NCBI RefSeq assembly: GCF_003544935.1
Contig: NZ_CP032098.1
Span: forward strand, 558,001 to 622,000
Direction: 5' to 3'
Source of the DNA: Malaciobacter molluscorum LMG 25693
GTDB taxonomy: Bacteria; Campylobacterota; Campylobacteria; Campylobacterales; Arcobacteraceae
DNA length: 64,000 nt
Both the position numbers and the translations under genes were made by a program. The notes under the pieces were generated by a model, which was not told the DNA's origin, searched no databases, and saw nothing but the letters and a program-made list of their open reading frames with translations. Positions within the stretch are counted from its first letter, which is position 1. Each line of letters begins with the position of its first letter. Positions 40,317 through 44,961 of this stretch are shown piece by piece.

Positions 40317-42017
40317 ATGAAAATATCAAAAGAAAAATATACATCAATGTATGGACCAACTACAAATGATAGATTTAGACTTGCTGATACTTCTTTAATA
40401 GCAAAAATTGAAAAAGATTATACTATTTATGGTGAAGAGAGTAAATTTGGTGGTGGAAAAACAATAAGAGATGGAATGGCTCAAAGTCCAACTGCTACTA
40501 ATGTTGTAGATTTGATTATCACAAATGCAATCATTATTGATTATACAGGTATTTACAAAGCTGATATTGGAATAAAAGATGGACTTATTAGTGCTATTGG
40601 TAAATCTGGAAATCCAAATTTATGTGATGGAATAACTGAAGGTTTAGAAATTGGAGCAAATACAGAAATTTTATCGGCTGAAGGGAAAATTATAACAGCT
40701 GGTGGCATTGATTCACATATTCATTTTATAAGTCCAGAACAAATCGATGTTGCACTAGCAAGTGGAGTTACAACAATGGTTGGAGGAGGAACAGGTCCAA
40801 ATACAGGAACAAACGCTACAACTTGTACTCCAGGAGAGTGGAATATTTCAAAAATGATTCAAAGTGTTGATAATCTTCCTTTGAATTTTGGTTTTATGGG
40901 AAAAGGAAATAGCTCAAGATATGAAGCACTGAAAATGCAAGTTGAAGCTGGAGCAATGGGATTGAAACTTCATGAAGATTGGGGAAGTACACCAAATGCA
41001 ATTGATACTTGTTTGAAAGTTGCAGATGATTTTGATATTCAAGTTGCTATTCACACAGATACTTTAAATGAGTCAGGATTTGTTGATAGTACAGTAGGTA
41101 GTTTTAAAAATAGAACAATTCATACATTCCACAGTGAAGGTGCTGGAGGTGGACATGCTCCTGATATTATGAAAGTAGCAGGATTAGCAAATATTTTACC
41201 ATCAAGTACAAATCCAACTTTACCATATACAAAAAATACAATTGAAGAACACCTTGATATGCTTATGGTTTGTCACCATTTAAGTCCTAAAATTCCAGAA
41301 GATGTAAGTTTTGCAGAATCAAGAATAAGAGGAAAAACTATTGCAGCTGAAGATGTATTACATGATATTGGAGCAATATCAATAACAAGTAGTGATTCTC
41401 AAGCAATGGGAAGAGTAGGAGAAGTTATTATTAGAACTTGGCAAGTTGCTGATTCTATGAAAAGACAAAGAGGTGCTTTAAAAGGTGATGATAACTTAAG
41501 TGATAATGAAAGAATCAAAAGATTTGTTGCAAAATATACTATAAACCCTGCAATTGCTTGTGGAATTGATGATTATGTAGGAAGTGTTGAAGTTGGTAAG
41601 ATGGCAGATTTAGTTTTATGGAATAGAGCATTTTTTGGAGTAAAACCAGAAATTATTGTTAAAGGTGGATTTATCGCTCTTGCTATGATTGGAGATAGTA
41701 ATGCTTCAATTCCAACACCAGAACCTAATATGTATAGACCAATGTTTGGAAGTTTAGGAAAAGCAAGTGCAAAAACAAGTGCTATTTTTACATCCAAAGT
41801 TGCAAGTTCTAATTTAAAAGAGAAATTAGAAATATGCAAAAAAGTATTAGCAGTTAAAAATACTAGAAATATTGGTAAAAAAGATATGAAATTAAATGAT
41901 TTCATCGGAGATATAAAAGTAGATCCAGAAACATATGATGTTACTGTAAATGCAGAGTTGATTGAATCAAATTATGTTGAAACTGTACCAATGGCAAAAA
42001 AATACTTTTTATTTTAG
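40317..42017 (+). CDS. ureC: Urease alpha subunit
   Basis: The product has 566 residues, the normal length. Counted from its start, all nickel ligands and catalytic residues fall at the Klebsiella positions: His134 and His136 (DSHIHF), carbamylated Lys217 and His219 (GLKLHED), His246 (AIHTDT), His272, flap Cys319 and His320 (VCHHLSP), and Asp360 (TSSD). It hydrolyses urea to ammonia and carbamate in the cytoplasm. It should be functional once the accessory proteins insert nickel. It is called UreB in Helicobacter nomenclature. Confidence 0.98.
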
Positions 42018-43160: not shown

Positions 43161-43748
43161 ATGAGTTTAAAAATTGGAATAGCAGGACCAGTTGGAAGTG
43201 GTAAAACTTCATTAATAGAATCAATGACTAATTTATTAAAAGATAAATATTCACTAGCAATTGTAACAAATGATATTTATACAACTGAAGATGCAAACTA
43301 TTTAAAAAAAACTTTGGACTTAGATGAAAATAGAATAATTGGAGTTGAAACAGGAGGATGCCCTCATACTGCAATTAGAGATGATATTTCTATGAATCAA
43401 AAAGCAGTTGAAGGACTTGAAGAAAAATTCAATCCAGATATTATATTTGTTGAAAGTGGTGGAGATAATTTAAGCGCTACATTTTCTTATGAGTTGATTG
43501 ATTATTATATGTATATAATTGATACTGCGCAAGGTGCTGATATTCCTAGAAAAAAAGGTGCAGGTTTACTTTTTTCAGATTTATTAGTAATAAATAAAAC
43601 AGATTTAGCCCCTTATGTTGGTGTAAACTTGGATGAAATGAAAAAAGATGTATTACTTAATAGAAAAAATAAACCATCAGTATTTATCTCAAATAAAGAT
43701 GAACAAAGTTTACAAAAGATTATTAATTGGATAGAAGTTATATTATAG
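43161..43748 (+). CDS. ureG: Urease accessory GTPase UreG
   Basis: The product has 195 residues. P-loop [13 protein letters not shown], then TNDIYTTED, the CPH-type metal motif in [23 protein letters not shown] and [10 protein letters not shown]. UreG hydrolyses GTP to drive nickel insertion into urease. It is the last gene of the urea cluster; no ureI channel gene is seen. Confidence 0.96.
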
Positions 43749-43796: not shown

Positions 43797-43802
43797 TATA
43801 AT
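43797..43802 (+). promoter_or_regulatory. -10 box of small-RNA copy 1
   Basis: TATAAT within AACTGTTATAATTTT, a block repeated with one change before copy 2. A weak TTGAAA at 43771 is too far for a -35, in line with the usual lack of a -35 in this phylum. Confidence 0.5.
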
Positions 43803-43808
43803 TTTCTT

Positions 43809-43924
43809 ATGAATAAGCAAGAAGCGGACTTACTTATTTATGCTTAAAATACATAGCGAATTTTTCCTATGAAAATTTTATGTTTCCTTGTGTGTAAAGA
43901 CCTCCTAATAGGAGGTTTTTTTTT
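43809..43924 (+). ncRNA. Candidate small RNA, copy 1 of a tandem pair
   Basis: About 115 nt from a TATAAT promoter to an intrinsic terminator. The 5' part folds into a hairpin, AATAAGcAAG (from 43812) with CTTaCTTATT (to 43838), exposing the loop AAGCGGA. The 3' part has TTTATGTTTCCTTGTGTGTAAA followed by the terminator ACCTCCT-AAT-AGGAGGT and T9 (43900-43924). The same blocks recur in copy 2, while the middle differs. No ORF with a ribosome site is present. The CCTCCT in the stem is complementary to the consensus ribosome-binding sequence. The start is estimated from the promoter. Confidence 0.65.
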
Positions 43925-43986
43925 GCCTAAAATTTCTATTAACTAATCATTAATATTCTATTCAAAAACAGTTAATTATGAACTGT

Positions 43987-43992
43987 TACAAT
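43987..43992 (+). promoter_or_regulatory. -10 box of small-RNA copy 2
   Basis: TACAAT within AACTGTTACAATTTT, matching the promoter block of copy 1. Confidence 0.45.
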
Positions 43993-43999
43993 TTTAATA

Positions 44000-44109
44000 T
44001 AAATAAGCAAGAATACGGACTTACTTATTTTTGGTAGAATTAAATTTCTACAAGATTTTTTTTATGTTTCCTTGTGTGTAAAAGCCTCCTTTTGGGAGGC
44101 TTTTTTTTT
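44000..44109 (+). ncRNA. Candidate small RNA, copy 2 of a tandem pair
   Basis: About 110 nt. The 5' hairpin AAATAAGcAAG with CTTaCTTATTT exposes the loop AATACGGA. The middle is different from copy 1, but TTTATGTTTCCTTGTGTGTAAAA is again identical, and the terminator AAAGCCTCC-loop-GGAGGCTTT with T9 (44081-44109) is conserved in position though its sequence has changed. Preservation of pairing with base changes in the terminator stem supports a selected RNA. Two homologues in a row suggest duplication of a regulatory RNA. Confidence 0.65.
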
Positions 44110-44205: not shown

Positions 44206-44961
44206 ATGTCTAAAAATATTTGGATAATAGGTGCAAGTAGCGGAATAGGATTAGAGTTAGTTAAAATATGGCTAGATAAAGGACATAATGTTATAGTTAG
44301 TGCAAGAAGTGCAACAAAATCAAAAGAGTTAATGTCTTTACTTTACTCTTATAATGAAAAATTAATACTTCTTAATCTTGATGTTAGTGATGAAGCTTCA
44401 ATAATCGATGCTCTAGAAAAAATTCAATCACAAAATCTTAAAATTGATTTACTGTTTTATAATGCTGCTGTTTATAATGCTTTTGATCTTGATAATTGGA
44501 ATATAAAAGATTTTGAACAAATGATAAATATTAATTATTTAGGTGCTATTAGAGTAATAAAAATTTTAAAAAGTTTCTTTGAAAATCAAGATTATGCAAA
44601 ATGGGTATTTAATTGTAGTTTATCTAGTGATTTTGGACTTCCTTATGGTGGTGCATATAGTGCCTCAAAAGCAGCTCTTGTTAATATTTTACAATCTATT
44701 CAACCTGAATTAAAAACAAAACAAATAGATTTACAAATAATAAATCATGGTTTTGTAAATACAAGACTTACTCAAAAAAATGATTTTGAAATGCCACAGC
44801 TTTTAGAACCAGTTGATGCTGCAAATATAATAGCTACACAATTGGAAAAAAATAAAGGTTTTGAGATTAGATTTCCATTTAAATTAGCATTATTTTTAAG
44901 ACTTCTAAAAATTTTACCTTACTCAATTTCATTAAATATAACTAAAAAGCTTTTAAAATGA
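44206..44961 (+). CDS. Short-chain dehydrogenase/reductase
   Basis: The product has 251 residues. The N-terminal NAD(P) motif is IGASSGIGLELV, followed by LFYNAAVYN (NNAG-like) and the catalytic Ser...YSASKAAL (YxxxK). It opens the lipid-type cluster ending at 50963 and overlaps the next gene by 4 bases. In comparable clusters of other bacteria an SDR acts with an FAD enzyme and a CFA-like methyltransferase. The substrate is unknown. Confidence 0.85.
   Translation: MSKNIWIIGASSGIGLELVKIWLDKGHNVIVSARSATKSKELMSLLYSYNEKLILLNLDVSDEASIIDALEKIQSQNLKIDLLFYNAAVYNAFDLDNWNIKDFEQMININYLGAIRVIKILKSFFENQDYAKWVFNCSLSSDFGLPYGGAYSASKAALVNILQSIQPELKTKQIDLQIINHGFVNTRLTQKNDFEMPQLLEPVDAANIIATQLEKNKGFEIRFPFKLALFLRLLKILPYSISLNITKKLLK

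Follow-up and report, generated by a model that had tools for sequence, protein, structure and literature searches.

Putative tandem small RNAs of Arcobacteraceae share a promoter box with htrA and have predicted outer-membrane protein targets

In enterobacteria, envelope stress leads to production of the protease DegP/HtrA and of small RNAs (sRNAs), such as MicA, RybB and others linked to sigma-E, OmpR or Cpx, that block the start sites of outer-membrane protein mRNAs. This pairing of HtrA induction with outer-membrane protein silencing is known there under sigma-E. How sRNA networks operate in bacteria without Hfq is an open question, for which Campylobacterota are a main case. NikS/HPnc4160 of Helicobacter pylori, an sRNA of this phylum, is controlled by NikR, unlike the control that we propose below. 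The LhrC sRNAs of Listeria monocytogenes have an Rfam entry. In Campylobacter jejuni, htrA adjoins cj1227c-cj1226c.

LhrC1-5 are multicopy sRNAs controlled by the two-component system LisRK under envelope stress; their CU-rich sites pair with the mRNA of a surface protein, an interaction for which Hfq is not needed (PMC4132741). NikS/HPnc4160 acts in a bacterium without Hfq and represses several mRNAs, including those of outer-membrane proteins, by pairing with their leaders (PMC8322730). CprRS of C. jejuni, a two-component system of the OmpR type, has links to htrA and to further envelope genes, and the accessible portions of two reports mention no sRNA under it (PMC4518328, PMC9449129).

The window, which is the whole stretch of 64,000 nucleotides that was analysed, belongs to a 2.80-Mb single-contig Arcobacteraceae genome (G000 in our numbering). 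An earlier note on it had proposed two tandem homologous small RNAs, and sequence and repeats bear this out. At 43797-44109 there are two homologous units of ~110 nt each in direct repeat, 184-191 nt from start to start, and each consists of a promoter, the arms of a 5′ hairpin, a fixed 3′ block and a terminator (Table 1). The parts described in that note occur in both units: the promoter block AACTGTTAyAATTTT, the hairpin arms AATAAGCAAG and CTTACTTATT with CGGA between them, and the fixed 3′ block. The sequence TTTTATGTTTCCTTGTGTGTAAA is identical in the two. The terminator stems have, as described, changed in sequence and kept their pairing (ACCTCCT-AAT-AGGAGGT and GCCTCCT-TTT-GGGAGGC). With its own promoter and intrinsic terminator and an intergenic position, each unit has the sequence anatomy of a trans-encoded sRNA. 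Two features described below were absent from the earlier note, namely the four 11-bp repeats upstream and the occurrence of the same RNA in relatives where urease does not adjoin it.

Table 1. Coordinates of the two units, their predicted elements and their neighbours in the window
Feature	Position	Strand	Basis or remark
Gene upstream, the final one in the urease operon (presumably ureG, by position and sequence)	43161..43748	+	Incidental
Box of unit 1, response-regulator-type: four 11-bp direct repeats TTAACCATTCA TTAACTATTGG TTGAAATTTAG TTAA	43749..43785	+	Exact match (0 mismatches) to the box pattern, whether or not the -10 is included; box shared with htrA and other sRNA-like units
-10 of unit 1, TATAAT, no -35 seen, 11 nt past the box	43797..43802	+	Sequence and pattern scan
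Putative small RNA 1, ~110-116 nt	43809..43924	+	5′ end estimated from the -10; homologues in relatives
Hairpin 1 (5′ hairpin) of unit 1, GCGGA in loop	43811..43839	+	Fold; covariation in the homologous helix of Aliarcobacter-type units
Core / predicted seed TATGTTTCCTTGTGT of unit 1	43879..43893	+	Conserved: TGTTTCCTTGTGT in 50/50 collected units
Intrinsic terminator of unit 1	43896..43924	+	Fold and sequence
Box of unit 2	43939..43975	+	1 mismatch to the pattern with the -10 included
-10 of unit 2, TACAAT	43987..43992	+	Sequence and pattern scan
Putative small RNA 2, ~110 nt	43999..44108	+	5′ end estimated; hairpin 1 absent from the minimum-energy fold
Core / predicted seed of unit 2, same sequence as in unit 1	44063..44077	+	Conserved
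Intrinsic terminator of unit 2	44081..44108	+	Fold
Downstream neighbour, short-chain dehydrogenase (adh_short)	44206..44961	+	Incidental

The units do lie after the urease operon, as had been pointed out, but a link to urease did not hold across relatives. The urease neighbourhood is incidental: among the ten genomes whose flanks were read (the window and L010-L018), urease genes flank the RNA only in G000, G002 and G005. In relatives the RNA adjoins what we take to be an msrQ-like gene, a helicase-like gene or others. Elsewhere in the window, at 40462-40752 on the minus strand, Rfam reports the 5′ ureB sRNA (RF02514) with 75 bits; the match lies within a urease gene, in antisense, and may reflect coding conservation.

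No coding potential had been seen in the units, and we likewise found no frame conserved across 50 units collected from Arcobacteraceae. An ATG frame of at least 8 codons near the 5′ end was present in 5 of the 50. Four of these frames (11-12 codons) were in Malaciobacter, unit 1 of the window included, and one (20 codons) was elsewhere; unit 2 and the single-copy Malaciobacter units had no such frame there. A small-protein gene was dismissed because the frame is not conserved.

All five other genomes of the same genus carry the RNA, singly in G001, G003 and G004 and in tandem in G002 and G005. A motif consisting of the core with flanking bases, WTGTTTCCTTGTGTNWNA, matched 36 of 104 Arcobacteraceae genomes, in 8 of 20 genera, under a rule that misses at least G031 and with part of the matches read; the reversed control pattern gave 2 matches. 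Because of the five genomes of the genus and of this difference from the control, the family is not a product of chance, and the conservation in relatives that the earlier note had named as a check is found. Among named records, members occur in those of Arcobacter (Aliarcobacter) cryaerophilus, A. vitoriensis, A. caeni, A. vandammei and Poseidonibacter ostreae. An 18-mer scan of named genomes returned 38 loci, 18 of them members by their flanking anatomy and 20 that look like chance matches in unrelated genes. Genome G023 has three copies (L039, L040), a pair separated by 1 kb and one more on a different contig.

The core TGTTTCCTTGTGT is present in each of the 50 distinct units, a constancy that is partly built in, since the units were gathered by core search or by DNA similarity. 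The set covers the fetched genomes among the 36 with the motif. Five loci (L357, L358, L360, L158 and L161) were dropped from it as duplicates, and L046 (G031) was dropped with the similar L133 kept. In most units a second hairpin accompanies hairpin 1, and the promoter, core and terminator are likewise shared. The terminator and hairpin sequences diverge between genera and the core does not, in part because the units were found by their core.

No Rfam family reached its gathering threshold over the two window units, and a relaxed search gave only sub-threshold matches, none of them to LhrC. The earlier note knew of no described RNA of this form, and none was found in Rfam or in the open-licence literature searched. 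Unnamed intergenic candidates confined to Arcobacter are mentioned for Arcobacter sp. L (PMC6429828), and they may include this RNA. Apparently, this is a conserved, undescribed sRNA family of an already known kind, that of stress-induced, base-pairing sRNAs. We assign it to no named RNA family.

Both window units folded better than dinucleotide shuffles, with z of -3.3 and -3.4, and 1 of 200 shuffles was as good for each. Hairpin 1 forms in the minimum-energy fold of unit 1; in unit 2 its 5′ arm pairs with the fixed block instead. RNAalifold found no structure in the all-genus alignment (A2), which we think is due to misalignment of the diverged arms by MAFFT, and the alignment was therefore split by group. 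With pairs counted for hand-written structures, 7 of the 11 pairs of hairpin 1 were changed on both sides in the 24 Aliarcobacter-type units (A4), and 97.7% of the cells of this hairpin were paired. These are compensatory changes of the type that the earlier note had proposed to look for. The covariation score of the whole A4 structure was reached by none of 500 shuffles. The A4 terminator helix was only 56.3% paired. When A4 was slid by +3, 28 cells were changed on both sides as against 26 unslid, with 8 pairs against 12 and a score of 0.151 against 0.201. For 16 units of another genus (A3), counted in the same way, covariation was weaker, several rows were out of register, and a slide of +1 on the 3′ side gave a slightly higher score (0.182 against 0.171).

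Across the 50 units, the predicted seed had a mean unpaired probability of 0.64, compared with 0.38 for the whole RNA, and it was the more open of the two in 46 units. The seeds of the window units were no more open than the RNA average (0.35 against 0.37 and 0.44 against 0.42). Seven of the 9 Malaciobacter units have a minimum-energy fold without hairpin 1, in which the 5′ arm is bound to the core and 7-11 of the core's 13 bases are paired. This modelled fold may be a state in which the RNA inhibits itself, or the energy model may be in error; because of the fold, our confidence in the reading that we favour below is slightly lowered.

Upstream of each -10 there are four 11-bp repeats of a TTAAC type, TTAACyATTYA-TTAACTATTGG-TTGAAATTTAG-TTAA. 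A pattern of the box, an 11-nt gap and the -10, based on the sites of G000, G004 and G036, was run against 11 genomes. The gap was fixed by the pattern, and a gap-free pattern found the same sites in these three genomes. All 28 matches with at most 1 mismatch, classed with gene identity partly assigned by eye, belonged to this RNA (12), to other short sRNA-like units (7) or to htrA (9), so that they have in common a direct-repeat box before the -10, as a regulon would. The gene htrA was the sole protein-coding gene matched at this threshold. Five of the seven sRNA-like matches were of one type in Malaciobacter, and two, in G036 and G023, were of another make. Ten of the 28 (4 sRNA-like, 6 htrA) were in genomes where such sites were unseen when the pattern was written; the promoters of this RNA itself in those genomes had been seen before.

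In G000, htrA is followed by a Response_reg-Trans_reg_C gene (an OmpR-type response regulator) and then by a HAMP-HisKA-HATPase gene (a histidine kinase). The same order was recognised by eye in G004 and G036. By analogy, envelope stress is the likely inducing signal, since CprRS of C. jejuni affects htrA and other envelope genes (PMC4518328).

Box matches with 2-3 mismatches were mixed with noise. Box-like sites with 2 and 3 mismatches, respectively, precede eptA-type phosphoethanolamine transferase genes at L125:610-767 (G000) and L114 (G022). At L123, L127 and L129 (G001, G003, G004), a related but distinct TTAA repeat box accompanies an LTXXQ (CpxP/Spy-like) gene and, behind it, the gene of an OmpR-type response regulator, a pair that looks like a second, CpxRA-like system. 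A box-like site with 2 mismatches lies shortly before a TonB-dependent receptor gene in G023 (L106:1501-1578), and a similar site is at C5:117743 in G036. The site in G023 would mean activation of the receptor gene, not repression.

The fixed block UGUUUCCUUGUGU, which stands ahead of the terminator, is complementary to Shine-Dalgarno regions, and its core is complementary to ACACAAGGAAACA. The complement of the 15-nt seed, allowed up to 2 mismatches, had 10 non-self sites in G000, four of which were at gene starts (three receptor genes and a porin). A reversed-pattern control of this complement had as many whole-genome matches as the pattern itself, and the raw counts were without signal. The target signal resides in which matches sit at start codons.

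There are 10 Plug genes (TonB-dependent receptors) in G000, and six of them, which are paralogues, carry AYACAAGG just before the start codon. At the start sites of 70 window genes, AYACAAGGA was absent (Fisher 7e-7 against 6 of 10 receptors, where the receptor hypothesis was formed on three of the same ten genes). The sequence ACACAAGGA alone was present in 4 of the 10 receptors (Fisher 1.3e-4), and four of the eight sites of the form ACACAAGGA-N3-10-ATG in G000 were receptor genes. Over all 10 receptors, duplex energies were stronger than for 68 window genes (p = 2.5e-5), a result matched by none of 300 control seeds in which the UUCCUU core was kept and the flanks were shuffled.

The receptor start match varied with the genome. 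It was seen in 3 of 4 receptors in G005 and 1 of 4 in G004, but in none of 5 in G003 and none of 17 in G001, G010, G022 and G036 together; of the 70 Plug genes of these seven genomes, 30 were read, with starts chosen by script. The RNA is present in all seven, matching or not. A seed complementary to mRNA start regions is thus found in G000, and beyond it the predicted receptor targeting is lineage-bound. Either the stress logic persists with changing targets, or some other gene is the ancestral target.

In six genomes, 20 sites with up to 2 mismatches were at gene starts, and nine of these were beta-barrel genes: five receptors and four Porin_4-type genes (two porins by eye). The count went from 22 to 20 when L173 and L222, which lie inside longer open frames, were dropped; start sites were read for 80 of 82 non-self pattern sites and 30 of 81 control sites. 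With a permuted pattern, none of three start sites was in an outer-membrane gene, compared with 9 of 20, numbers too small for a test. At the Porin_4 starts, genes that were picked for matching, predicted pairing was -20.4 (G000), -24.2 (G005), -23.7 (G003) and -19.4 (G004) kcal/mol, against -16.6 for the best window gene. ACACAAGGA was also found at the start sites of two outer-membrane efflux (OEP) genes in G118, of a DUF3373 gene in G022, which we take to be an outer-membrane protein gene, and of a DoxX gene in both G010 and G036. Start-site matches outside the envelope, named by eye, were in prs-like genes (G003, G004, G036), a PAS gene (G000) and nuoL-like genes (G000, G001, G022, G118).

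The same box also stands before a second sRNA type of ~80 nt, made up of a 5′ hairpin whose loop is GCGCGAA, the stretch UUCAUUGUUCUUCCUAAA and, last, a terminator. Its loci are L075:1919-2055 (G000 C1:2118418 onward), L077, L085, L090 and L110, with a [G/C]CGCGAA loop and UUCUUCCUAAA or UUCUUCUAAA; in G000 it is located before an MscS-type channel gene. Its predicted pairing with the start region of a Campylo_MOMP gene was -20.5, against -16.1 for the best window gene, and is a lead, the gene having surfaced when loci gathered for other purposes were scanned with mismatches allowed, and having been picked for matching. Its stretch showed no enrichment against the receptors of G000 (p 0.15), though 2 of 10 receptor starts outdid every window gene. 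Some porin mRNA leaders (L178 and L183, ~40 nt before the start codon; L223 and L243) contain GCGCGAA or GCGCGGA followed by UUCUCCUAAA or UUCUUCUAAU, resembling the second sRNA type.

Fifteen box-driven units outside the family of the window RNA were examined, several of them orthologues and eight of them at 2-3 mismatches to the box pattern. Ten, again including orthologues, have [C/T]GCGAA in their first 85 nt, where 0.004 per 80 nt would be expected from the window. All 15 have a CU-rich, anti-Shine-Dalgarno-like stretch by an expression that was written after viewing them. Box-like promoters with 2-3 mismatches precede short units with hairpins and CU-rich stretches at L113, L116, L119, L124, L128, L082, L112 and L117. 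Several of these units precede a HAD gene or a 135-aa gene, of which the G023 copy (L084:1791-2195) is without a Pfam match. As a tentative and rather doubtful extension, the box might drive a set of otherwise unrelated sRNAs built on one platform of a 5′ [C/T]GCGAA hairpin, a CU-rich anti-Shine-Dalgarno stretch and a terminator. The loop would then be a handle for a putative RNA-binding protein that replaces Hfq and CsrA, and the set would be an envelope-stress sRNA network that divides its labour between receptors and Porin_4 on one side and the MOMP porin on the other.

RNA gene anatomy, conservation, covariation in one group, the shared box, and complementarity with enrichment in G000 were computed here; around them, we infer transcription, a regulator, an inducing signal and repression. 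We consider it fairly probable that these are envelope-stress-activated, trans-acting sRNAs by which outer-membrane proteins are repressed. The four 11-bp repeats would be bound by an OmpR-family response regulator, most likely that whose gene lies with the kinase gene behind htrA, and under envelope stress this regulator would activate a promoter that has a -10 and no visible -35. In mRNAs of outer-membrane proteins, the Shine-Dalgarno region (A[C/U]ACAAGGA) would be the pairing site of the block UGUUUCCUUGUGU, and ribosomes would be kept from binding. Predicted targets in the window species are several TonB-dependent receptors and a Porin_4 porin, and the second sRNA type would pair with the start site of the Campylo_MOMP porin. 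One stress switch could thereby make the protease HtrA and cut outer-membrane protein synthesis simultaneously.

The lineage-bound receptor match can be read in another way. The RNAs could be real base-pairing sRNAs whose conserved seed serves another, older target, with the match in G000 and G005 a recent or fortuitous side effect of the shared AAGGA Shine-Dalgarno core. The core is in 50 of 50 units, yet receptor matches are 0 of 17 in four genomes, and the DoxX start sites in G010 and G036 and the prs-like genes in three genomes also fit an older target. The enrichment in G000, however, was not reproduced by flank-shuffled seeds with the same core (0 of 300), and the OEP pair of G118 and the Porin_4-type genes that match in 4 of the 6 genomes searched (two by eye) argue for the outer membrane. 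We regard an older target as unlikely. The same shuffling result weighs on a broader idea, that of general anti-Shine-Dalgarno RNAs damping translation through any AAGGA leader and without specific targets. Such RNAs would be expected from the complementarity of UUUCCUU to the common AAGGA leader and would agree with the CU-rich stretches of the 15 other box-driven units (found with a post hoc expression), but conservation reaches past the Shine-Dalgarno complement on the GUGU side, and in the second sRNA type it is another stretch that is complementary to an entire start region, AUG included. General damping therefore seems improbable to us. CCTCCT, which the earlier note had suggested as a mimic of an anti-ribosome-site sequence, occurs in the terminators of 5 of 50 units only and was dismissed in that role; the conserved, predicted anti-Shine-Dalgarno element is UGUUUCCUUGUGU, not CCTCCT.

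The regulator may also differ from the one proposed. If the box belonged to a response regulator other than the htrA-linked one, for example that beside the LTXXQ/CpxP-like gene or an orphan, the signal might not be envelope stress. Related boxes with 2 mismatches before the LTXXQ-response regulator gene pair are in line with this, whereas htrA as the sole protein-coding match at up to 1 mismatch (9 matches in 11 genomes) is consistent with autoregulation of its operon, and we hold another regulator to be unlikely. The earlier note had further suggested that CGGA loops capture a CsrA-like protein, which would make the RNAs CsrA-titrating decoys of the CsrB/RsmZ type. GGA does stand between the arms of hairpin 1 in Malaciobacter units, but CGGA is in the first 45 nt of only 9 of 50 units, all of one genus, and CsrA was above the cut-off in none of 11 genomes, the window genome included (one sub-threshold match in G031; controls positive in 3 of 14). 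Because the positive control genomes include no Campylobacterota and a CsrA homologue is reported for H. pylori (PMC8322730), a divergent CsrA could be missed by the search. Decoys of this type were nevertheless rejected as hardly credible. Hfq was found in none of 31 genomes, again including the window genome (controls positive in 5 of 14, none of these a member of Campylobacterota), and the Hfq pull-down that had been proposed is therefore without an object.

Compared with the described systems, envelope-stress-activated repression by the window RNAs is closest in control and copy number to LhrC. Both occur in multiple homologous copies. The box common to the RNA and to the operon of htrA, response regulator and kinase would be the counterpart of LisRK control, and the predicted pairing of the fixed block that of the CU-rich sites of LhrC. 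In contrast to LhrC, the family is in another phylum, is joined to LhrC by no Rfam match, and has two copies in the window genome plus other co-regulated sRNA-like units; for Hfq, the search of 31 genomes found none. The 5′ ureB sRNA (RF02514) shares the urease neighbourhood. It differs in place and strand, being antisense within a urease gene, and the two units do not match RF02514.

The proposed logic, stress-induced HtrA with a block at outer-membrane protein start sites, is that of MicA and RybB, which use Hfq and sigma-E, unlike the OmpR-family-type box and the Hfq-negative genomes here. NikS/HPnc4160 is the likeness within Campylobacterota without Hfq, and its repression by leader pairing has a predicted counterpart in the window RNAs. 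CprRS resembles the candidate regulator by domain content and adjacency to htrA; the sRNAs predicted to be under the candidate are a difference from CprRS as described in the text cited above. What the locus adds to the question of sRNA networks in Hfq-less bacteria is a promoter box and a candidate for its regulator, together with two or more sRNA types that share the box and a few predicted targets in the outer membrane. On our best reading, by analogy, the RNAs would work like LhrC in control and copy number and like MicA and RybB in logic, with membership in neither group, which suggests that the coupling of HtrA induction to the silencing of outer-membrane proteins evolved a second time, here under two-component control.
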